Positions 7,554 to 18,984 of a stretch of DNA of 64,000 bases are shown piece after piece. This DNA is from Desulfosudis oleivorans. Lineage in GTDB: Bacteria; Desulfobacterota; Desulfobacteria; Desulfobacterales; SURF-7. The notes beneath the pieces were generated by a model. It saw nothing but the letters and a program-made list of their open reading frames with translations, had not been told where the DNA came from and searched no databases. The stretch spans positions 1-64,000 of the forward strand of contig DYJD01000005.1 in NCBI GenBank assembly GCA_020723325.1, given 5' to 3'. Each line of letters opens with the position of its first letter. The first letter of the stretch is position 1. The translations under genes were made by a program, and so were the position numbers.

Positions 7554-9659
7554 TCATTCATGGGCATAGGCCCCCAGGTCCCATTGCCTGCGGGGACGGC
7601 CTTCCATATCCAGGGAAAAATCAAATTCCGGAAAAAGCGCCACCGGCAGCAAGGCCGTGATGTCCGTACCGGCGCCGATGGCCGGACTAGCGGGTAGCAG
7701 ATGAAAATCGAGATGCTCCCCATCCACGAAAATCTGGGACAGGTTTTCATTTACCGTTTCTCCATCTTCAAGCTGCCAGCCGTAGCGTTCTTGCTGGTTC
7801 CAGCGCAGTCCGGTATAGAGGTTGTGGGACCGGTCAATGCCCGGTACCGATGCACCGCCGTCAAAGATGTTGTTCTTGACGATATACGTGTTCTCTCCGG
7901 GAATAGTGCCGATATTCAAGGCGGAATTGCGGGCATTGCGCACCATGACATTATGGAAAAAGGCGATGGTGCCGCGCTCCCATGGACCGTGGGAAGTGTC
8001 CCCCCATTCATTGACATTGTTGTCCGCATTATGACCGTCGAAAATGTTGTTGATGAAAAACAGGTTGCCGCTGTCTTCAAAAGTCACCGGGCTGCCGGAA
8101 TCCAGCACCGTATTGTTGGCCGTGAGGATATTGCGGCAGCCCATGTAGAGGGTTATGCCGTTGGCATGGCTGCCGTTGCTGCCGCTGATGGTATTGCCGA
8201 TCAGCCGGCAGTCATGACCGGTATACAAGGTGAGGGCCGTTCCCCCCGGCCGAACAATGACGTTGTTTTCAACAAAGGTGTTCTGGGCATTTGCGAGAAA
8301 AATTCCTTTAGTACGGGGGTTGGACATTACTTGGTTCCCCATGATCCTTGAATCAACCACATTCTGAAGATAAATACCGCCGTAGCCTGTACGAGTTGCG
8401 CCGGTGCCGCTAAAGGCATTATGGGTGATCAGGTTGTTTTTGATAACAAGACCGATGTTCTGTTCATGGGCTGCGCTCAAAGTGCCGATGGCCACGCCCT
8501 GGCGGATGTTTTCGCCGGTAAGTTTTCTGACCTCAAATCCTTGAATGGTGATGTAGTCATGCCCTTGGATGTCCAGGCCGAATTGGCGCACCGACCGGGT
8601 GACACGGGCTGCAAGCCCGGTCTCATCCATGGGCCACAGGTAAATCCGGCGCATGTTGTTTGACGCCGGGCCGACGACATATTCACCGGCGCGATCCAGG
8701 GCGTGCAGGCTGTTATAGACCGCATAAGCCTGGTCCCGTCCGTCCGGGTAAAGGGCGTTGGTGCCCAGATCGGCAAAATAAACCGTATGGCTGGTCGGAT
8801 CAAAGGAAAGGATCTCCCGGATGATCACAATATTGGGGTTGACCCAGATCATCAGAAAGGACCCACGCCAATGCTCCGGCTCCGCCTGGGTAAAAAAGTC
8901 CCCGTCGGTAATGGAAAAACGCGTAAGTCGCGCTTGGGGGACAGAAATGAATTCAAAACGATTATCCATGAAATAAGGATCGCTGGGATTCGGCTCCTGG
9001 GCCAGCCAGAGGAAGTCATCCTTGCCGGTGGCAGGGTCCAATTCATGCAGGTTCAAGGACAATGGGGAATTCCCTTCCGGAATGTCCGCATAAAAGATAT
9101 GTTCAAAATTCGGATTGCCGCCGCATTCCAGGGCAGAGGGACAGGGCTGCCAGCCGGAAACCACGTCACCGCCGTCTATTACAGCCCGCCGGCCCGGCAG
9201 GCCGGGCCAGCCGTCTCCTTTATAGGTGATGGGCATCTGCGCCGAGCCGGCCGCTGGAATCCGGATTTGGCCGCGGTAGATCACATCCGATTTGAAAAGC
9301 AGGCAGTCACCGGGTTGCAACAGAACCTTTGCCGGATTGCCCCCGGCGGCCGGATCACCCGGCGCATGCTGCCAGGGGGTTTGCCGTGACAGACCATCGG
9401 TTGTATCCCGACCGTTTTCAAAGTCGATATAATACGTACGGCCCACTGTGATCCCCGTCCGCCCAAACAAGCCGCTGAATCGCCCCAGATCATCCTGGGT
9501 ATAATCACCAGCCGAATAGCCTGAGGCAAAAGCAAACAGGTCCGCTCCATCCACATCTTGATCGGGTTCAAAATCCAGTCCTGCCGATAAGACAGTACCG
9601 GCAATACCGATCAATGCCGACAGAAAAAAGACCATAAAACGACTGGTTTTCAAAATCAT
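7554..9659 (-). CDS. Secreted right-handed beta-helix protein with N-terminal EF-hand tag
   Basis: This 701-residue exported protein starts at an ATG with GGAGGTG 5 bp upstream; an in-phase ATG 24 bp earlier lacks one. A signal peptide (about 1-25) is followed directly by a dockerin-like calcium loop (DQDVDGADL) and a helix ending LFGRTG, about 40 residues in all. The remaining 620 residues are a pectate-lyase-like parallel beta-helix, with many short N/G-rich rungs such as ENNVIVRPGG, RLIGNTISGSNG and TANNTVLDSG. Such folds usually bind or cleave acidic polysaccharides, but no catalytic residues could be assigned. It is last of five consecutive exported genes on this strand. A stem (7544-7551 with 7563-7570) overlaps its stop codon. 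Confidence 0.88.
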   Translation of the reverse strand: MILKTSRFMVFFLSALIGIAGTVLSAGLDFEPDQDVDGADLFAFASGYSAGDYTQDDLGRFSGLFGRTGITVGRTYYIDFENGRDTTDGLSRQTPWQHAPGDPAAGGNPAKVLLQPGDCLLFKSDVIYRGQIRIPAAGSAQMPITYKGDGWPGLPGRRAVIDGGDVVSGWQPCPSALECGGNPNFEHIFYADIPEGNSPLSLNLHELDPATGKDDFLWLAQEPNPSDPYFMDNRFEFISVPQARLTRFSITDGDFFTQAEPEHWRGSFLMIWVNPNIVIIREILSFDPTSHTVYFADLGTNALYPDGRDQAYAVYNSLHALDRAGEYVVGPASNNMRRIYLWPMDETGLAARVTRSVRQFGLDIQGHDYITIQGFEVRKLTGENIRQGVAIGTLSAAHEQNIGLVIKNNLITHNAFSGTGATRTGYGGIYLQNVVDSRIMGNQVMSNPRTKGIFLANAQNTFVENNVIVRPGGTALTLYTGHDCRLIGNTISGSNGSHANGITLYMGCRNILTANNTVLDSGSPVTFEDSGNLFFINNIFDGHNADNNVNEWGDTSHGPWERGTIAFFHNVMVRNARNSALNIGTIPGENTYIVKNNIFDGGASVPGIDRSHNLYTGLRWNQQERYGWQLEDGETVNENLSQIFVDGEHLDFHLLPASPAIGAGTDITALLPVALFPEFDFSLDMEGRPRRQWDLGAYAHE

Positions 9660-9686
9660 ATTCACCTCCATGGCTCTCCTCAAAGC

Positions 9687-11228
9687 CTAATCCGTGCACA
9701 ACGGATTCTGCAAATCCAGTGCAAAGGCCGCCAGATCACCGCCGTCCGCATCTGCATCTCCGTCCATATCGCCGCCAGCGGCAACAAGTCCGGTGCGACC
9801 AAAGGATGCGGCCAAATAGGCCAGATCAGCAATGTCGACAACGCCGTCGCCGTTGCGATCTCCCCGGCATCGACCCGGCGTTTCATAGGCGCCGATACTG
9901 GGCGGGTTCAGGTAGGCCTGGCCGGCCATATCCTGCTGGACAAGGACCGGGGCAAGGCCGGCTTGAAAGGCGGGACTGGTTTCCGTGATGGTGTAGTCTT
10001 GGCCGCCGGGATCGGCCAATTGCGGATTTTGGCCGTAAAGCCCGTTGGTCTCGGGTGCCGGCAGACTCGGAGCCGAGGCGCCCGGATTGTCATGGGCGTA
10101 CCACAGATTGTTGGAAAAATGAAAGGTGTCCGGCGCGGTGTAGGCGCCGATATTCACATGGGTCCGGATCTGGCCCCGGCTAAAATAAAACAGGTTATTG
10201 GAAAGGCTGTTAGCCCCGCTGGCCAGGAAAGTATATTCCGGCGTGGAACGGGTTTCCTGCAGGATGCGGAACAGCCAGTTCACGGGATCGATGATGGTGT
10301 TGTTGGCGGCGATGCTGTTTACACAGCCCACAAAGGCAAAGGGTGTCACCGAGCCCACAAACACATTGGAAAGTACCCGAATGTTTTTGGCTTCAAAATT
10401 GGGCGCGGTGGTGGACAAGGGCGGCCGGAAATATTGAAAACCGGTGGACCCGCCGATATTAATGCCCCGCTCCCCGGCATTCTGGATCCAGCACCAGCGG
10501 ACTTCCACATCTTCCGACCCGCCCTTCACCTGGACGGCATTGCCGCTGAGATCCGTAAAGATACAGCCGGCGATCATGCCCCGGTGGCAGCCCACTTGAT
10601 CGATCCCGCTGCCGGAGCCTCCGCCGCCGTTGCGGGTCATGCGACAATCCAGGACAAAATAATCCCGCAGGCCTGAAAGTTTCAAAGCGTCCTGATTGCC
10701 GCTGCCGCCGATGTCATGGATGAAGAGACGTTGAAAAAGGAGGTGATGGGCGGCCAGGGGGTTGGCGGTGTCGCCGCCGTCGTCGAAGTTGATCCCGTTG
10801 CTGGCGGCGCCGGTGACCTCCAGATCATGGAGGATCACATAAGCCGAACGGCTGAACTGGATGCCGGTGCCGCCGCCGGAAATGACCGGCGGATGCTGGG
10901 GATCACTGCCCCCGATCCAGATGGGCGCTACGGCCGTGCCGGCAACCCCGCTACTGTATATCCCGCCCCCGTAGGTTCCGGGCTGAATCCGGACTGCCGT
11001 GCCCGGCACCGCCCGGGAAATCCCGTAGCCGATGGTGGCATAGGGGGCGGCAACGGAACCGTTGCCGGAGACATCGCTGCCCGTTGTGGCCACATGGATT
11101 TCGGCAATGGGCGCGAGGCTGTCGGCAAAGGTGGCCACATCCACCCCCAATACGCTTGCCGGTATCCATACTACCTGAACGATACAAAACAAATATGTAA
11201 TTATAAATCGGTACTTGCAGACCGCCAT
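9687..11228 (-). CDS. Secreted beta-helix protein with C-terminal dockerin-like repeats
   Basis: This 513-residue exported protein has a signal peptide to about residue 28 and a DUF1565/pectate-lyase-like parallel beta-helix (about 40-440). The helix opens with HVATTGSDVSGNGS and APYATIGYGISRA, the usual first coil of this family. The C-terminus holds two calcium-loop/helix halves, DRNGDGVVDIADLAYL then DMDGDADADGGDLAAF, separated by FGRTG, very like a type I dockerin. AGGAG upstream of the ATG supports the start. Only 27 bp separate its stop from the next start, so it sits in the five-gene exported-protein operon. Substrate unknown; a polysaccharide is the likeliest target, by fold alone. 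Confidence 0.88.
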   Translation of the reverse strand: MAVCKYRFIITYLFCIVQVVWIPASVLGVDVATFADSLAPIAEIHVATTGSDVSGNGSVAAPYATIGYGISRAVPGTAVRIQPGTYGGGIYSSGVAGTAVAPIWIGGSDPQHPPVISGGGTGIQFSRSAYVILHDLEVTGAASNGINFDDGGDTANPLAAHHLLFQRLFIHDIGGSGNQDALKLSGLRDYFVLDCRMTRNGGGGSGSGIDQVGCHRGMIAGCIFTDLSGNAVQVKGGSEDVEVRWCWIQNAGERGINIGGSTGFQYFRPPLSTTAPNFEAKNIRVLSNVFVGSVTPFAFVGCVNSIAANNTIIDPVNWLFRILQETRSTPEYTFLASGANSLSNNLFYFSRGQIRTHVNIGAYTAPDTFHFSNNLWYAHDNPGASAPSLPAPETNGLYGQNPQLADPGGQDYTITETSPAFQAGLAPVLVQQDMAGQAYLNPPSIGAYETPGRCRGDRNGDGVVDIADLAYLAASFGRTGLVAAGGDMDGDADADGGDLAAFALDLQNPLCTD

Positions 11229-11247
11229 TCGACATTCTCCTTTCAGA

Positions 11248-13986
11248 TCAATTCCTCCCGAAGTTTCGACAAAATTCCAAAAGGGATACGACGGGCGTGC
11301 CTTGAATCAGGGCGCTGACATACTGCGAAAGGTCGAACCCATCCACATCGCCGTCGTCATCCAGATCCGCATCCAGATTCAAATAGGCCAGGCTGTGATG
11401 CAGATTGACAAACATCTCGGCATTGGTTTTTTCCCAAGGATTGTCGCGGCTTTCCCGGAAAGCCTCGGTGCCCAGTATGTAATCGAGACCTTCCATGCCG
11501 AAAGTGGTCAGAGCGGCATCCCCCTGCATTGCCCCGGCCCGCAGCATGCTAAGAATCATAAGGGATTTACCGGCGCTATAGAGGACCGCATCGCCGTCGA
11601 ACACCGGGTAAACCGCGGTGAGCGTACCGTTCAAGCGATGGCCGGTAAATTCAACGCCCAGCTTGTTGGCCCAGCCGCCGTACCAGGTTCCGTCCCCGCC
11701 TGAACAGACCGGACCGCTGCAGGCGGTCGGAACATACTGCGCCAGGCCGTTGACCAAGGCACCGTAAACCGCGGAGGTCTTCAAGGAGACGTCGCCGAGC
11801 CCCGGATCATGCCATCTGACTTCCGGATCATGCCATTCCTTGTAATACCCGTACAAATCATTCAAACCGTACATGGCGATCATCCAGTTCTGTTCCGCTT
11901 CCGTACCGGAAACAAACACCTGGCGGGCCAGGATGTCATCGCCGTAAAAGGCATATTCCGGATTTCCCTGGCTGTCGTTTTGCAGGAAAAGGCTGCGGGC
12001 GAACACATGGCGGAACATATGGTGAAAGTCCTGCAGAAAGCTCAGATTGTCCGATGCATGGGGATACCGGTTGTCCACGTGGCCCAGGAATTTGAAAATT
12101 CTTACGAATTGGGAGCCGATGCGGCCCTGGTGCTCGGACCAATCCACGCCGCCGCTAATTGGATCGTTCAACGCATTGTTGTTTCTGGTGAAGGCCTTTC
12201 TTTGCTTTTCACCCCCGACCCGCAGGATGTCGACGACTTCCAGGTCACCGGTGAGATAATAATAATTGTACAGATTCTCAAAATAGGAATGGGCGGAATT
12301 GCCGTCGGAACGATAGCGGTCATAGCCCGCATAGCCCCAGCCCATGAAATGGGAAGAGCCGGCCCAATCCGGCTGGATGATCTGGGTATGCAGCATGCGC
12401 CGCGCGCCCATGAAGGACAGATCGTATAACAGGCTGGGGTCCCTTTCCAGCAGAAAATGGAACACCACGTTGTTCCAGGCGCTGTGATAATCCGTCAGGT
12501 TGCCGGTGCTGTAAATCTTATCCCAGCCGGTGCCTGTGCCGATTTCGGACGGCGAGTTGTAGCGCGGCATACCACCCCAGACCATCAGCCCATGAAACTT
12601 CTCCGCCTCCAGAAAAGTCCGGGTGGTCTGGGAAACGGCTTTGACTTCATTGTAATAGGCCTGTAGGCGCGGGTCCGAGGTGGCATCCGGCGTTATCGGC
12701 ACTTCCCGGAACACCTGCGATGATACCACATACGCATTGGTCGGAAAGGCGAACACCCGCTGGTTCAGCGGGGCGTAGTTGTATGTCAGGACGTCTTCGC
12801 GGCTGGCGCCCGGCGGCAGGGCCGAAATTCCCACCCGGGCCCAGGTTCCCTGGTTATTGGCGAAATATTGCGGCTCGGACATCACCTTGATTCTGATTTT
12901 GCCGGTATGCCCGGTTTCCATGGACTGGGGCTCGAACACCTGCATATGGTCCATGCTCACGGCGATGGCACCGTTGTCCGAGCGGTTGATCAGCAAGGGC
13001 TGCGTCGCCAGGGGGGTTGAAACGCTGTGCAGGCCGTGGATGACTTCCGCCCGCTGGGGGTCGGCAAACAAGGTTCTTCTGCGTTGGGCCACACCGGCGG
13101 TCTGGGATGGGCTCAGCAAACCTTCCAGGATGGTGGATTGGTCGGCGCCGACGACTGTCCACCGACAGTCACCGGTCATATCCGGCAGGGTCAGGGAGGT
13201 GTTGTTGACGGTGATGAAATAGTTTCCGGAAGGCCTGCCGCTGCCTTCGCTTTCATAACCGGACCAGAAAAATTTATGATACACGATCACAGTGGGGGAA
13301 CCGGCGAAAAACGAATAACGGATCTTGTAGGAAAGGGTTTTGGCGCTGCCCGGTCCCACCGGGATGTTGCCGTAATCCCCCTGCACCTTGATAACAAGAT
13401 ACTGAGCGGTCTGCCGTTCGATGGAAACCGAATTCGGCGCCAGGGCCGGTGCTTCGGCCTGTCCGGCGATGGTGGAATGGCTGCCGCCGTTACCCGCAAG
13501 CAGCGTGACATGGTTTTGCAGGACCGCATCGAAAAACGTCAGTCGGTGTTTGTTGATCACAAACTGGGCCGCCCCTGTGTCCACCTGGTAGGCATCATTG
13601 GTCTCGCTGAGGGTGACGCCCACCAATGGGCTGATGGGCGCTCCGTGCTTCAGGATATACGTTTTTTCCGTATTGGCGCTCAGGGTTGCCGGGAAAGAGA
13701 CCAGCAGCCATTGAATGGCCCTGTCCGTGTCATCCCGCCCGCCGGCCCAGCGGCTCAATACCTCGAAGGAGGCCGGGACCTGCGTGCCGACATCGTCTTC
13801 GATGATCAGCTGATCCGTGGTGAAAAATTGCTCGTTTTCCGCCACGGGAATACCGTTGTGAATCATCTCGTTAACCCGGTCGATGCCCAGGGTTTCCCTG
13901 ACGGTCAACGGAATGTCCGCGAAGACAGCCTGGATCTGTGAGAAGCCGAGCAGAAGAACAACGATACCTTGCAACATCTTTTTCAT
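11248..13986 (-). CDS. Secreted RIFT-barrel (PcRGLX/YetA-like) protein with C-terminal EF-hand tag
   Basis: This 912-residue exported protein starts at the ATG preceding KKML, which has AAGGAA upstream; an in-phase codon 30 bp earlier is less likely. Residues about 25-450 resemble the RIFT-barrel and central domains of the PcRGLX/YetA-type exo-rhamnogalacturonan lyase superfamily (for example IPLTVRETLGIDRVNEMI, a positive-charge-poor beta region and paired FFTTDQL). The region from about 480 to 850 is probably an alpha/alpha toroid, with many aromatic segments such as SHFMGWGYAGYDRYR. The last 45 residues are the EF-hand tag (DDDGDVDGFDLSQY ... FCRNFGRN). Lyase activity on a pectin-like or other acidic glycan is inferred from the family; no catalytic set could be verified. 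Confidence 0.78.
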   Translation of the reverse strand: MKKMLQGIVVLLLGFSQIQAVFADIPLTVRETLGIDRVNEMIHNGIPVAENEQFFTTDQLIIEDDVGTQVPASFEVLSRWAGGRDDTDRAIQWLLVSFPATLSANTEKTYILKHGAPISPLVGVTLSETNDAYQVDTGAAQFVINKHRLTFFDAVLQNHVTLLAGNGGSHSTIAGQAEAPALAPNSVSIERQTAQYLVIKVQGDYGNIPVGPGSAKTLSYKIRYSFFAGSPTVIVYHKFFWSGYESEGSGRPSGNYFITVNNTSLTLPDMTGDCRWTVVGADQSTILEGLLSPSQTAGVAQRRRTLFADPQRAEVIHGLHSVSTPLATQPLLINRSDNGAIAVSMDHMQVFEPQSMETGHTGKIRIKVMSEPQYFANNQGTWARVGISALPPGASREDVLTYNYAPLNQRVFAFPTNAYVVSSQVFREVPITPDATSDPRLQAYYNEVKAVSQTTRTFLEAEKFHGLMVWGGMPRYNSPSEIGTGTGWDKIYSTGNLTDYHSAWNNVVFHFLLERDPSLLYDLSFMGARRMLHTQIIQPDWAGSSHFMGWGYAGYDRYRSDGNSAHSYFENLYNYYYLTGDLEVVDILRVGGEKQRKAFTRNNNALNDPISGGVDWSEHQGRIGSQFVRIFKFLGHVDNRYPHASDNLSFLQDFHHMFRHVFARSLFLQNDSQGNPEYAFYGDDILARQVFVSGTEAEQNWMIAMYGLNDLYGYYKEWHDPEVRWHDPGLGDVSLKTSAVYGALVNGLAQYVPTACSGPVCSGGDGTWYGGWANKLGVEFTGHRLNGTLTAVYPVFDGDAVLYSAGKSLMILSMLRAGAMQGDAALTTFGMEGLDYILGTEAFRESRDNPWEKTNAEMFVNLHHSLAYLNLDADLDDDGDVDGFDLSQYVSALIQGTPVVSLLEFCRNFGRN

Positions 13987-14015
13987 GCGTGTTTCCTTTC
14001 CAATCCATTCATTCA

Positions 14016-16037
14016 CTATAATCCGAAACGAGCGGCAAATGCCCCGAGGCAGGCCATATCCGGTTGCGCTGCCAGCAACGCCAGGTCATGGCCGTCCACA
14101 TCCCCGTCGCTGTCCTTGTCCACCATGCAGTCGCTGATGGATTCAAAGGCCCCCATGTCCGGGGCCGAGCCTGAAAAGTTGTCATTGATTCCCGGCAACA
14201 CCACGCCCCGGTCAATGAAAAGAGCGCCCGCAGCCGGCCGGTAGTCCCCGGCCGCCGCATTCATGAATTCCGGCATGATATCCAGCCCGTTTTGCTCTTG
14301 GCCGGTGCGGGACTGAAAGGTGGCAAGATCGCGCATGTGCCGGTCGCCGCCGGCGTCCCAGTAGACATATTCAGCGCTGCGGCTGGTGTAGAGCACATCA
14401 TAGTCGAAATCCAGGGGCTGGGAGGTGTTGTAGTTGTTCAGGGCGTAATCAGTGCCGGACCAGATGTTGTTGCGGGAAACGATCTTCTCCCAGGTGCCCG
14501 GCGCCTTGATGTAGATGCCGTTGTTGCCGGCCAGGACCGCGTCGCAGGTGTTGTGAAAAAGGAACATGGGCCCCGAAAGGCTGTACCCGCTGTTGAACTT
14601 GAAAGGGCTGCCGGTGTATTCGCTGTTGCCGGCGCCGGTCCGGTAAATCAGGTTGCGGACAGCGTAAACCGGGCCGTCGTACACCGGGGCCAGGGAAATG
14701 CCCATGAGCACGTCATGAAACGTATTGTCCCACAGGCGCACATTGGCCGCCCGGCCGTCCACTTCCACCCCGTCGTCGCCGGTGTTGTAGACCAGGTTGC
14801 CGTACACATCGGTCTCGTTGGTCACCTGATTGGTGCTGCCCGTACCGCAACCGAACCCGTCGAAATAGTCATGAAACGTATTGTGGCGGATGACGTTGCC
14901 GCGGCCGTTGAGGGGGTCATAGAAGCGCACGCCGCCGGTCTCCAGGTTGGAGACTTCCTTGACCGGGTGCCAGGGCCACTGGAAAATGGTGTCATAAAAT
15001 TCGTTGTACTCCATCAGGTTGCGGGAGCAACTGCGCTTGAGGCCGATTCCCAGGTCATTGACCGCGAAGGTGCAGCCGCGGACCAGATTGTTGCTGGCAT
15101 TGTTGAAATAGATGGCTTTGGCCCAGCTTCCCTGGCCGAAATGCGTGAACGTAAGATCGGTGAAATAGATATAGTCCCGTTCCACGATAAAACCGTAATT
15201 GTACCGGGAGACCTGGATCAGATGGGCATTGGGATCCGCATCATTTGCCAGATGGATGGAGAGCGTAGTGCCGTCGCAGTAGAACCCGGGCACTTGGTAT
15301 ACCAGCCCCTGAAGATTGGTGAGACTGTCATAGGGGAACAGACGCTGACCGTCCACAGTGACCAGATGGGTATTCGGCACGTTGATGACGGTGCGGTAAA
15401 CGCCCTGGCCCTGGGGTGTCCAAACCAACGTCGCCGGATCGGCCCCGCTGATCACCGCCGTCTGATCCGCCGCGCCGCGGATGGTGATGGGCGCGGCGGC
15501 CGTGCCGGATCGGGGAAACGCGAGTCCCCCCTGGTAGTAAGTGCCGCCCGTCAGCACAATTTCATCCCCGGACTGGGCCAGTGCAATCCCCTGGGACAAG
15601 GCGCAGGGACTTCCTGCTGTGCAGGCGCTTCCACTTCCGTTGGGCGAAACGTAATAGCTATTCCCTGCCGGGGAAATCACGATTTCGCTCCGGGTTGCTG
15701 CGGTGGATGACAAAACCACGCCGTCCAGCACACCGCCCGGGTCCGTAAAGGTCACCTGCACATCATAGCTCGTACCCGGGTCCAGGAAAAAGAGACTGCC
15801 GGTGAACTGCAGGCCATCCACCCGGGCAGGCGGGTAGGCCTGTCGAAAGGGTCCGCCGACTGAACGGTATTCCACCAGCACCGCAGCGTTTTGCTCTGGA
15901 TCCTCGCCGGCGCCCAGGGTGATTATCACTCCCATGGCGTGAAAATTTCCATACAGCGCAAGTTCAGCCGCCGTGGCCGATCCTGCCATAAACAGAGAAG
16001 TAATCACTACCCATAATTTCAAATAAGCCCGCTTCAT
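14016..16037 (-). CDS. Secreted beta-helix protein with Fn3-like N-domain and C-terminal EF-hand tag
   Basis: This 673-residue exported protein has a clear signal peptide (MKRAYLKLWVV ... ATAA, about 24 residues). A short beta-sandwich resembling fibronectin type III (LDPGTSYDVQVTFTDPGG) covers about 25-115. A right-handed parallel beta-helix then runs to about 620, opening with YYVSPNGSGSAC and containing rungs such as NNLVRGCTFAVND and VIRHNTFHDY. The C-terminus has an EF-hand loop DKDSDGDVDGHDL and a helix ending AARFGL. The Fn3-like plus beta-helix order is common in polysaccharide lyases of families such as PL6 and PL9, but I cannot assign a family. It has short gaps (29 and 90 bp) to its neighbours. 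Confidence 0.87.
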   Translation of the reverse strand: MKRAYLKLWVVITSLFMAGSATAAELALYGNFHAMGVIITLGAGEDPEQNAAVLVEYRSVGGPFRQAYPPARVDGLQFTGSLFFLDPGTSYDVQVTFTDPGGVLDGVVLSSTAATRSEIVISPAGNSYYVSPNGSGSACTAGSPCALSQGIALAQSGDEIVLTGGTYYQGGLAFPRSGTAAAPITIRGAADQTAVISGADPATLVWTPQGQGVYRTVINVPNTHLVTVDGQRLFPYDSLTNLQGLVYQVPGFYCDGTTLSIHLANDADPNAHLIQVSRYNYGFIVERDYIYFTDLTFTHFGQGSWAKAIYFNNASNNLVRGCTFAVNDLGIGLKRSCSRNLMEYNEFYDTIFQWPWHPVKEVSNLETGGVRFYDPLNGRGNVIRHNTFHDYFDGFGCGTGSTNQVTNETDVYGNLVYNTGDDGVEVDGRAANVRLWDNTFHDVLMGISLAPVYDGPVYAVRNLIYRTGAGNSEYTGSPFKFNSGYSLSGPMFLFHNTCDAVLAGNNGIYIKAPGTWEKIVSRNNIWSGTDYALNNYNTSQPLDFDYDVLYTSRSAEYVYWDAGGDRHMRDLATFQSRTGQEQNGLDIMPEFMNAAAGDYRPAAGALFIDRGVVLPGINDNFSGSAPDMGAFESISDCMVDKDSDGDVDGHDLALLAAQPDMACLGAFAARFGL

Positions 16038-16127
16038 TTGATATTCCTTTTCGTCAATCGAGTTAAAATCTTGTCATGGATTATAATTCTCCTGTTCCTT
16101 TTACAAAGCGATAGCTATGAATCTCAG

Positions 16128-17624
16128 TTAAAATTGATTGCGGTAGACATCCCACATCTCCTCACTGAACCGGCTCCAACTTCTTTGCCAGGTGCCGCTG
16201 GTCTGGATATTCATGTAGCGATCCTGGTAGTCGAATAATGCATCATGGGCCCAGAGGTTTTTGGCGTTCATGATGCGGGCCGCCAGCACAAACCCGGGCC
16301 AGGCATTGGCCGTACAACATTGGCGGTAAACAGCGCACCAGGCATTGTTGTCGGCAACTGGTTCCGTGCTGTGACGGATGCCCCATTCAGGCATGCCGAT
16401 ATCCGCGGATTTATAGGGCTCATAAAAACAGCCCCGGAGATCCGGCTGGTGAACCCGATCCACATCCGCCTGGGACACATAAAAAGTCTGACCGTCTTCG
16501 CCGAAATGAAAGGCGCTGCTGCCGTCTCCAGGACCGACATTTTTCAGATCATCATCCCCGAATATCAGCCCGGCGAAGATAATGGGCCATTTGCGGCCGG
16601 AGGAATGGCCGCCGTTGGGAACCCAGTTCTCCCGGCCGCCATCCATGAGAACGCCATGTAAGTCGATTCCCACCTGGAGAAAGCGGATCAGCAGGGTCCG
16701 CTTTTCCGCTGGGGAAAAGTCAAGCTGCAGCATCAAGGCGCCGTCACCGATGCGGGCGGCAATTTCCCTTCCATAATTGGGCAGGTTGTCCTGGGGATGG
16801 TGGTAGTCCGACATCCAGTTGGGCACATGATCGATAAACGGACGGGCAAACCAGCCTTCCGCCGTTGCCAGGGAAGGAGTTTTGGAAACCCGCGGCAAGG
16901 TCGCCAATAGGTCTGCATTGATTTGAGCCGTGTGAAAGCGGATGGTTTTATCTGCCCCGGAATAGGGCGGTCGGAAACTGCCTTCCGACGGCGGCGCTTC
17001 CAGGACCGTGAGAACTGCGGCGGTTTTCAACTGGGGTCTGGCCCCCAACGCTGGCAGACTGACAGCGGAAACCAGGGAATGCCTTGGAGGAATTGCCAAA
17101 GGGTTTTGTTCCGACAGATTCTGACCGTTGGGCCGGGCCACATTCAGGTCGGCCCGATAGTGGGGACCGTAGTTTCCATACATGGAGCTGTCATAACCCT
17201 GATCGCTGCCGGTACGCGGTGAAGGATCCAGCATGGAACCATGCATGACCCGCCCGTTCTCTTCTGTGGATAAAGGATCAATATGGACCACGGTAACCGG
17301 ACCCAGGACCCAGTAGTCCCCATTGGCAAAGCTGCCAAACTTGACTGGTTGGGAAAAGGTCCAGGTGATTCCGAATTGCGTGACGGATCTGGCCCAGATG
17401 ATTTTTCGCTGGCCGAAATTGGCGGCGAATACAGCCAGATCCTCCATTAACAAGCTGCCATCAGCCACGTTCTCTTTCAAAACCGCGAGATCCGCGCCGT
17501 CCACATCCTGATCCAGATCAAAATCCCCTGTGGGCAGAACCGCCCCCCACAGATTGTTAATAAAAAAAACAGACAGAATCGTAATCAAAAAGATACAGTT
17601 TCTGATACTGGTGCACCGGCCCAT
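16128..17624 (-). CDS. Secreted protein of unknown fold with N-terminal EF-hand tag
   Basis: This 498-residue exported protein is the first gene of the five-gene run. AGGAGGGG lies 7 bp before the ATG of MGRCTS; a GTG 6 bp upstream is too close to that site. The signal peptide (about 1-28) leads into the same tag as in the gene at the other end of the run: DLDQDVDGADLAVL, then a helix ending FAANFGQ. The body (about 75-498) is rich in Trp, Tyr and Gly (TQFGITWTF, GDYWVLGPVTV, MYGNYGPHYRAD) and has late segments resembling alpha/alpha-barrel carbohydrate enzymes. I do not recognise the family. Context suggests a role in the same exported polysaccharide-related set. Confidence 0.83.
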   Translation of the reverse strand: MGRCTSIRNCIFLITILSVFFINNLWGAVLPTGDFDLDQDVDGADLAVLKENVADGSLLMEDLAVFAANFGQRKIIWARSVTQFGITWTFSQPVKFGSFANGDYWVLGPVTVVHIDPLSTEENGRVMHGSMLDPSPRTGSDQGYDSSMYGNYGPHYRADLNVARPNGQNLSEQNPLAIPPRHSLVSAVSLPALGARPQLKTAAVLTVLEAPPSEGSFRPPYSGADKTIRFHTAQINADLLATLPRVSKTPSLATAEGWFARPFIDHVPNWMSDYHHPQDNLPNYGREIAARIGDGALMLQLDFSPAEKRTLLIRFLQVGIDLHGVLMDGGRENWVPNGGHSSGRKWPIIFAGLIFGDDDLKNVGPGDGSSAFHFGEDGQTFYVSQADVDRVHQPDLRGCFYEPYKSADIGMPEWGIRHSTEPVADNNAWCAVYRQCCTANAWPGFVLAARIMNAKNLWAHDALFDYQDRYMNIQTSGTWQRSWSRFSEEMWDVYRNQF

Positions 17625-17840
17625 TTTCACTCCCCTCCTGGATTCGCCTCAAAGATCCGCTTTTGATTCCACTTTCTTCCGCCGCTGTACCATTATGATT
17701 TAGCAATAATAGTGCCGATCCGCACTGCCAAGCTAATTTGCTGAAGGCTGATGGCTCTTTAGGTCTTCAGACTTCGATTTTAACATCAGCGTCTAAAGAG
17801 AAGTGTAGTCAGCCTTGGTCATCCTTTCAGCCATCCTCCA

Positions 17841-18591: not shown

Positions 18592-18984
18592 TCATGTCCA
18601 TGAAACCAATCTCAGTCCCTCGATTCTGCTGTAATGTTTTGCATTATTTGAGACTAAAATTAAATTATGCGCCATGGCACAGGCAGCGATTATGAGATCG
18701 AAATCATCCAAGCGTTTTCCTATGGCCTCGAAATTTGCTTTCAATAGGCCGAAAATCTGTACGGATTCAACTCCTATTGGAAGTACTTCAAAAGCTTCTT
18801 CGATTGCCTTCACTTTTGCCAAATTGCTTAATACCATCTGAGATTTATAGGCCCCATAATAGAGTTCCATAAGAGTTGCCGAACAGATTTTCATCGGCTC
18901 GTTTGCATATTGGCTGATGTTCTGATTTACAATTGGATCACCCTTGAGGCTATAGATGATCGTATCTGTGTCGAGCAAGAACAT
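18592..18984 (-). CDS. vapC: PIN-domain ribonuclease toxin of VapC type
   Basis: VapC toxins are Mg-dependent endoribonucleases, often acting on tRNA, held inactive by the cognate antitoxin. The 130-residue protein shows the PIN acidic set: Asp5 and Asp7 in LLDTDTII, Glu40 in ATLMELYYGA, and Asp96 in DDFDLIIAA. LVSNNAKHYSRIEGL near the C-terminus matches the usual last PIN motif, with Asn where some members have Asp. Its ATG overlaps the antitoxin stop in TAATG, the typical coupling for such pairs. Family assignment is firm; the RNA target is unknown. Confidence 0.93.
   Translation of the reverse strand: MFLLDTDTIIYSLKGDPIVNQNISQYANEPMKICSATLMELYYGAYKSQMVLSNLAKVKAIEEAFEVLPIGVESVQIFGLLKANFEAIGKRLDDFDLIIAACAMAHNLILVSNNAKHYSRIEGLRLVSWT

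Follow-up and report, generated by a model that had tools for sequence, protein, structure and literature searches.

A one-loop dockerin-like tag on secreted proteins of a Desulfobacterota bacterium, and a candidate cohesin partner

Dockerins and cohesins in and beyond the cellulosome

The closest described relatives of the tag considered here are the type I dockerins (PF00404), terminal modules of secreted carbohydrate-active proteins that have two calcium loops in about 60 residues. The tag shares with them its terminal location on such proteins, a calcium loop of the form D1-x-D3-x-D5-G6-x-V8-D9-x-x-D12-L13 followed by a helix, and a predicted structure that superposes on dockerins, but it has a single loop in 37–48 residues and its second unit retains a helix alone (LxxFAxxFGR). 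The precedent that a shortened dockerin works comes from the group-2 truncated dockerins of Ruminococcus flavefaciens, to which the tag is likened here by description. A single binding mode has been suggested for them (PMC2930009, PMC5301203) and a shortened dockerin of this species binds cohesin with a Ka of 1e6–1e7 per M (PMC5301203), although these modules belong to a Firmicute cellulosome with a different means of anchoring.

Non-cellulosomal anaerobes, Desulfobacterota included, also carry cohesin and dockerin domains, with examples in syntrophic sulfate-reducing bacteria (SRB), ANME archaea (where their use in non-cellulosomal settings is described in PMC9012536) and Archaeoglobus (PMC10553843, PMC9012536; Peer et al. 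2009 as cited there). In the parts of these accounts that were available, such proteins were found by standard domain libraries, whose cut-offs are not reached by the tag and cohesin described here, and the same parts mention neither a linkage to exosortase nor a one-loop form. One review calls the role of dockerins outside cellulosomes unknown (PMC5244752).

The tagged operon and its genome-wide family

The window, the 64,000-nucleotide stretch of DNA that was analysed, comes from the genome of an uncultured bacterium of the sulfate-reducer type (G000; 7.2 Mb, contigs labelled C). It holds five consecutive minus-strand open reading frames (ORFs; 16128–17630, 14016–16037, 11248–14016, 9687–11228 and 7554–9683), which look like one operon because the gaps between them, in that order, are so short (90, about 0, 19 and 3 nt). 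Scanned for promoters and terminators, the operon gave no more than shuffled background. On visual inspection, all five proteins start with a signal peptide of the Sec type, in agreement with the preliminary description of five consecutive exported proteins.

The first gene of the operon encodes 500 aa, with a signal peptide, an N-terminal one-loop tag (17403..17531, minus strand; TGDFDLDQDVDGADLAVLKENVADGSLLMEDLAVFAANFGQRK) and a body of unknown family that was matched by no Pfam or NCBIfam family. The 673 aa product of the second gene is a beta-helix protein, its N-terminal segment resembling chondroitinase B and alginate lyase, and has a C-terminal one-loop tag with a Cys pair (14019..14129, minus strand; CMVDKDSDGDVDGHDLALLAAQPDMACLGAFAARFGL). 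The third (922 aa) combines a PcRGLX-like body (Pfam PF21345) with a C-terminal one-loop tag (11251..11373, minus strand; LDADLDDDGDVDGFDLSQYVSALIQGTPVVSLLEFCRNFGRN); PDB sequence relatives were searched for with this body and that of the first gene, and none was found. In the fourth (513 aa) a beta-helix body is followed by a two-loop dockerin-like module, formed by the C-terminal 60 residues (9690..9869, minus strand; CRGDRNGDGVVDIADLAYLAASFGRTGLVAAGGDMDGDADADGGDLAAFALDLQNPLCTD) with two loop–helix units in sequence, and a weak PF00404 match of 10.9 bits is found at 9741–9863. The fifth (709 aa) has a signal peptide, then an N-terminal one-loop tag (9453..9578, minus strand; LDFEPDQDVDGADLFAFASGYSAGDYTQDDLGRFSGLFGRTG), and a beta-helix or NosD-like body. 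The tags are therefore placed as originally reported, N-terminal in the outer two genes and C-terminal in the inner three.

Each of the four one-loop tags is a module of about 40 residues with one canonical calcium loop (DxDxDGDVDGxDL), a helix, a short turn and a second helix ending in FxxxFGR. They have in common D-x-D-x-D-x-D-V-D-G-x-D-L and LxxFxxxFG, and 12 of 44 alignment columns are invariant. The reported observation holds, with four of the five proteins having this one-loop form; gene 9687, the sole bearer of two loops in the window, is the member correctly said to have two half-repeats, and the two-loop form is seen in this gene and its relatives. In a wider alignment all 37 tags have one loop only, with D11, D13, D15, G16 and D18 invariant and D7 nearly so.

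The observation is larger than was first noted, as a profile search of the genome finds 17 tags, seven of them in a second cluster. The 13 beyond the four used for the profile have E-values of 3e-8 to 3e-5, every one in a long open frame, and the loop DNA pattern has 15 genome matches against 0 for the reversed pattern, which is not the behaviour of background-level matches. All 17 copies are found at one end or the other of secreted enzyme-like proteins, behind the signal peptide or at the C-terminus. The bodies include GH18, GH42-like, beta-helix lyase-like and PcRGLX-like domains, and most are polysaccharide-active or beta-helix proteins as predicted from sequence.

Neither Pfam nor NCBIfam calls the one-loop tag. 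Full window proteins gave no match to PF00404 at E<=1, and isolated tags reached at best an E-value of 9e-4, the first member scoring 14.1 bits against a cut-off of 22.9, below the gathering score. The tags also have a DxDGxDL pattern similar to that of the GC-type dockerin-anchored proteins (NF041540), but this model matches only 6 of the 37 tags weakly (best E 0.005) and the single matching window protein has 13.3 bits against a cut-off of 29.

The AlphaFold2 model of the tag of the first gene (pLDDT 91) is a loop–helix–turn–helix, and among the matches listed with Z>=2 in a VIA search of the PDB, all are dockerin-containing chains, the best being 2y3n_B (Z 5.3, 2.0 A over 44 of 48 residues). 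The Foldseek E-value is weak (0.77), as expected for a tag of only 48 residues. Relative to PDB dockerins the model is without the second calcium loop. Judged by its sequence and predicted structure, the tag is a one-loop dockerin, in which the second calcium-binding loop appears to have been deleted and the helix of the second unit kept. The earlier term dockerin-like is thus apt for fold and loop, though the four tags, with two helices but one calcium loop, are not full dockerins.

Single-cohesin proteins, co-occurrence and PEP-CTERM neighbours

The remark that no cohesin lies in the window was right but misleading, since two single-cohesin proteins are encoded on other contigs of the genome (C98:50.1 kb and C101:32.3 kb). 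The C98 protein is small and secreted, with a cohesin and a C-terminal dockerin, and its gene stands upstream of the second tag cluster in the order cohesin–dockerin, PEP-CTERM protein (C98:49525–50046), seven tagged genes. It scores 16.2 bits against PF00963, below the cut-off of 24.1, and other members of its family reach E 4e-7. By predicted fold it is clearly a cohesin (pLDDT 91.7), the best 45 matches listed being cohesins, led by 6kgc_A (Z 13.9, 2.7 A over 134 residues). The C101 cohesin shares 43% identity with it across residues 10–191, is without a dockerin, and has a C-terminus resembling a cut-short CFI box. This cohesin is previously unrecognised and is not called by Pfam, and the tags score below the Dockerin_1 and NCBIfam cut-offs, so that this is not a case of known dockerins copied unchanged alongside a cohesin already described. 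The C98 protein is like adaptor scaffoldins in joining a single cohesin to a dockerin, but its dockerin is symmetric and belongs to another class than the tag of the enzymes, and the candidate anchor beside it is a PEP-CTERM protein. Neither a conventional cohesin at the Pfam cut-off nor a multi-cohesin scaffoldin was found in the genome, whose assembly is 99.5% complete yet fragmented enough to hide one of the latter.

Tag and cohesin track each other across genomes. Among 95 relatives (own genome excluded) seven have the tag, six the cohesin and five both (p 2e-6, uncorrected for shared ancestry). A second set, sampled independently from the phylum and free of seed genomes, comprises 394 genomes; the tag is present in 17 of them and the cohesin in eight, all eight having both (p about 2e-12, uncorrected for phylogeny), and the six cohesin families of this set all fall inside its 11 tag families. 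Searches of other Desulfobacterota and for a co-occurring receptor gene had been proposed with the preliminary description. In 11 tag-positive genomes a cohesin of the C98/C101 family is absent even by a 19-sequence profile, some of them (G175, G386 and G089) having full one-loop tags; the cohesins of these genomes may have diverged further, or else the tag binds something different there. One genome, G005, has the cohesin and no tag at E<=0.001.

Tagged genes lie no more than a few kb from the cohesin gene in G026, G059, G074, G132, G227, G282, G468, Pec_A4 and M17. Of 21 cohesin loci, 13 have a PEP-CTERM neighbour no further than 1.5 kb away, against 0 of 151 control ORFs, and the cohesin is itself fused to a PEP-CTERM signal in G074, G132 and G282 (L123:979–1587, L194:5427–6032 and L191:2562–3179). 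TIGR03370 (VPLPA-CTERM) matched in two members. Exosortases (PF09721) are encoded in G000 at C53 and C85, so that exosortases accompany the PEP-CTERM-type signal carried by the cohesin or by the protein beside it. When PEP-CTERM neighbours were compared with cohesins by HMMER and hhalign, one further possible case emerged beyond the three fusions (G227, hhalign 50%) and the rest had no similarity; we do not claim that these neighbours are generally cohesins. Among the papers searched, none named a dockerin or cohesin domain together with PEP-CTERM.

Docking, anchoring and other possible roles of the tag

Dockerin-like tags and a matching cohesin suggest a cellulosome-like pinning of enzymes to a Gram-negative surface. 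The system is of the cohesin–dockerin kind, a new variant in its one-loop form, and is not a cellulosome, because a multi-cohesin scaffold was not found. We consider it fairly probable that it is a non-cellulosomal surface-anchoring system of Desulfobacterota, in which the tag would dock to single-cohesin adaptors or anchors. Most likely the one-loop tag, with Ca2+ bound, docks into the single cohesin of the two small secreted proteins, a step that we infer from co-occurrence and gene linkage. With less assurance, the cohesin protein may stay at the cell surface by one of two routes, either directly through a PEP-CTERM signal to which the cohesin is fused, or via its own C-terminal symmetric dockerin, perhaps bound to the PEP-CTERM protein next door, the PEP-CTERM anchor being presumably processed by exosortase. 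Polysaccharide-active enzymes would then be shown singly on the Gram-negative surface, without a multi-enzyme scaffold. The original idea of a sorting or anchoring tag for a carbohydrate-degrading set accordingly finds partial support, from the dockerin fold, the enzyme bodies and the co-occurring cohesin, its anchoring part being inferred.

Other roles for the tag have to be set against this docking system. A calcium-binding module serving folding or stability only, in the manner of thrombospondin type 3 repeats or single EF-hands and with no docking partner, would fit the 11 tag-positive genomes without cohesin and a loop whose motif, Dx[DN]xDG, is generic and has many separate origins in extracellular proteins (PMC3123361). 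We think it unlikely, given that one module with a conserved second helix is found at the N- or C-termini of unrelated bodies, resembles dockerins only among the VIA matches listed, and tracks cohesin in two genome samples as well as by physical linkage. Less likely again is that the tags do bind cohesin, but for cell–cell or biofilm adhesion instead of enzyme display. An adhesive role has been proposed for such proteins in syntrophic sulfate reducers and in ANME archaea, and one study counts those of syntrophic SRB among the putative adhesins and describes high expression of them in consortia (PMC10553843), but the tagged bodies of G000 are mostly predicted polysaccharide-active or beta-helix proteins and not adhesins.

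That type I and II dockerins are the closest folds and sequences, and that gene 9687 and its relatives have a two-loop form, could mean that these are ordinary two-repeat type I dockerins of a conventional cellulosome with a degenerate second half. This we hold to be very improbable, as G000 has neither a Pfam-level conventional cohesin nor a multi-cohesin protein, and conventional cohesins abound in four genomes of the same order (G017, G043, G049 and G086), none of which has the tag; a conventional cellulosome was rejected, no scaffoldin having been found in G000. Least credible is the view that a transporter or sortase-like enzyme recognises the tag as a signal for secretion or sorting, as happens with the C-terminal domains of the type IX secretion system (T9SS). 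The tag is indeed common to unrelated secreted bodies, but it is placed immediately behind the signal peptide in some proteins and at the C-terminus in others, has a predicted folded calcium-loop structure, and is followed by no hydrophobic segment or basic tail; T9SS-like C-terminal sorting was rejected on account of the N-terminal copies.

A more elaborate form of the docking system is possible, though we would sooner doubt it than assume it: a two-tier, exosortase-anchored enzyme display in Gram-negative anaerobes, in which one-loop dockerins with a single binding mode would engage single-cohesin adaptors, and the adaptors' second, symmetric and species-specific dockerin would engage adjoining PEP-CTERM surface proteins. 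Against this second tier, most PEP-CTERM neighbours show no cohesin similarity by which they could be recognised as its receptor. If true, the two-tier arrangement would parallel the type I/type II cellulosome hierarchy independently and without a multi-cohesin scaffold. Enzyme display through the docking system, if it holds, would mean a genetically encoded retention of polysaccharide-degrading enzymes on the cells of Desulfobacterota and their relatives, would tie cohesin–dockerin biology to exosortase/PEP-CTERM sorting, and would provide an unusually small dockerin, useful for designer protein assembly. The purpose of non-cellulosomal dockerins would thereby become testable.

The tagged operon and the spread of the tag

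Five minus-strand genes with operon-like spacing, named by their lower coordinates, run from 17630 down to 7554 in the window, and all five encode proteins that, judged by eye, begin with a signal peptide. The bodies of 7554, 9687 and 14016 are right-handed beta-helices, the last with a chondroitinase-B/alginate-lyase-like segment; that of 11248 is PcRGLX-like, and that of 16128 is without known relatives, with no family match in Pfam or NCBIfam and no sequence relative in the PDB. Upstream of the operon, a 130-aa ORF (18592–18984, minus strand) has by eye the look of a PIN-domain (VapC-type) toxin.

The preliminary description gave all five proteins a common tag. This holds for 7554, 11248, 14016 and 16128, in which one Ca loop (D-x-D-x-D-x-D-V-D-G-x-D-L) leads into two helices joined by a short linker, the second of them LxxFxxxFG, but not for 9687, which carries a two-loop module instead. 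The tag is a family and not a chance pattern; searched over the 7.2 Mb genome, a profile built from the four window tags recovers 17 tags in all, and the 13 that lie beyond the window's five genes score E 3e-8 to 3e-5. The loop pattern searched in DNA gives 15 matches in the genome against none for a reversed-pattern control. Seven tagged genes are clustered on contig C98, with bodies that include GH18, GH42-like, PKD-LamG, CBM96 and beta-helix, and lone tagged genes with mostly beta-helix or FG-GAP bodies occur on C13, C18, C89, C101 and C64. The tag lies at the extreme C-terminus or directly behind the signal peptide. A disulfide clasp closing the module is suggested because a Cys before the loop and a Cys after helix 1 are mostly present together (18 of 37 tags) or absent together (17 of 37).

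The tag as a reduced dockerin

The tags stay below the cut-offs of the Pfam Dockerin_1 and NCBIfam dockerin models, and so are not plain copies of known dockerins. Searched against all PDB sequences, a profile of 37 one-loop tags matches mainly dockerins, aligned to the loop and first helix only. The AlphaFold2 model of the tag is confident (pLDDT 91), with a loop and helices at 16–27 and 33–42, and among the VIA structural matches listed every one with Z>=2 is a dockerin-containing chain; the best of these (2y3n_B, Z 5.3, 2.0 Å over 44/48 residues) aligns across both halves of a 60-residue dockerin. Related genomes hold a two-loop form with CEGDFDGDNDVDGSDLAVFAADFGRTDC twice in tandem, which is the likely parent of the one-loop tag. 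By sequence and predicted fold, the best description of the tag is a dockerin from which the second Ca loop has been lost while that loop's helix is retained. Truncated dockerins with cohesin-binding ability are known in R. flavefaciens (PMC2930009, PMC5301203).

Cohesins as candidate receptors

No cohesin exceeds the Pfam cut-off anywhere in the window's own genome (G000). A candidate receptor is nevertheless present: a weak Pfam cohesin match (16 bits) lies in a 229-residue secreted protein whose gene is found a little upstream of the tagged cluster on C98. At its C-terminus this protein bears a genuine two-loop dockerin (the adaptor dockerin). Its model (pLDDT 91.7) has only cohesins among the best 45 matches listed (best Z 13.9, 2.7 Å over 134 residues), making it a cohesin by predicted fold. 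A second copy, without a dockerin, is encoded on C101 (L127:8221-8883, plus strand); its C-terminus, ...SDSNLCFISTAFGK, resembles a CFI-box sorting motif truncated by a stop soon after its beginning, possibly an alternative or decayed anchor. The window operon is linked to neither cohesin.

The tag and the cohesin co-occur across genomes. In a set of 95 relatives, with the genome itself left out, the tag occurs in 7, the cohesin in 6 and both in 5 (p 2e-6, shared ancestry ignored); among 394 phylum genomes, none a source for either profile, the counts are 17, 8 and all 8 (p 2e-12, likewise ignoring ancestry), and all 6 cohesin-bearing families are also tagged. Tagged genes adjoin the cohesin gene or lie within 10 kb of it in G000, G026, G059, G074, G132, G227, G282, G468 and the MAGs M17 and Pec_A4. 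G132, a single contig of 2.5 Mb, has one cohesin-PEP-CTERM gene with six tagged genes after it (L194:5427-17299); most of these six bear the two-loop form of the tag, and in one the tag is a single loop-helix half (CKGDFDHDGDVDGADLAIFASEFGRTDCLP). In Desulfobacterium sp. Pec_A4 (L176:7182-9790) the cohesin frame is cut off after 136 aa, immediately ahead of a gene with a one-loop tag, perhaps by a frameshift or a fault in the assembly.

Even a wider profile, which gave one marginal match in 41 control genomes, finds no cohesin of the C98/C101 family in eleven tag-positive genomes. Some of their tag matches are short alignments to two-loop dockerins, but the one-loop tags of G175, G386 and G089 are full. 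Part of these absences is explained by incomplete assemblies; that of G089 is 71% complete. The tag occurs in none of 22 genomes bearing a conventional PF00963 cohesin over cut-off, a result not significant alone with only 8 tag genomes (p 0.11). Conventional cohesins are abundant in the order-level relatives G017, G043, G049 and G086 (13 to 26 matches, part of them in long proteins), which points to Desulfobacterota having separate scaffoldin-like systems.

Proposed surface anchoring and mechanism

A PEP-CTERM-type protein is encoded within 1.5 kb of the cohesin at 13 of 21 loci, compared with none of 151 control-stretch ORFs from G000, and a looser pattern adds such neighbours in G471 and G387. 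The cohesin itself ends in a PEP-CTERM signal in three genomes, two family members match VPLPA-CTERM, and G000 has exosortases.

The adaptor dockerin belongs to another class than the tag. Over the recognition segment its two repeats share 93% identity, compared with only 32% between proteins, the mark of a symmetric dockerin with specificity drifting from species to species. Near-identical, species-specific segments, each present twice (for example ITPPDIN, INSVDYV and LTNADMF), are seen in L044:12087-12776 (minus strand), L126, L125, L124, L169, L187, L188, L190, L192 and L193, a pattern of a symmetric interface whose two halves change in concert. The adaptor dockerin's obvious candidate partner is the PEP-CTERM neighbour, but most such neighbours lack a cohesin signature by sequence.

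Non-cellulosomal cohesin and dockerin domains, including those of syntrophic sulfate reducers, are already known and have been interpreted as adhesins (PMC10553843, PMC9012536, PMC5244752). Our literature search, which covered few subscription journals, found no paper joining either domain to PEP-CTERM, and one only with dockerin and exosortase together, which names the two separately among the features of ANME archaea; within that scope the link is new. We consider it moderately likely that the tag binds the cohesin in a Ca-dependent manner. The cohesin would in turn be anchored at the surface through PEP-CTERM, likely where the two are fused and plausibly elsewhere, and the adaptor dockerin could possibly provide a second tier on a PEP-CTERM protein.
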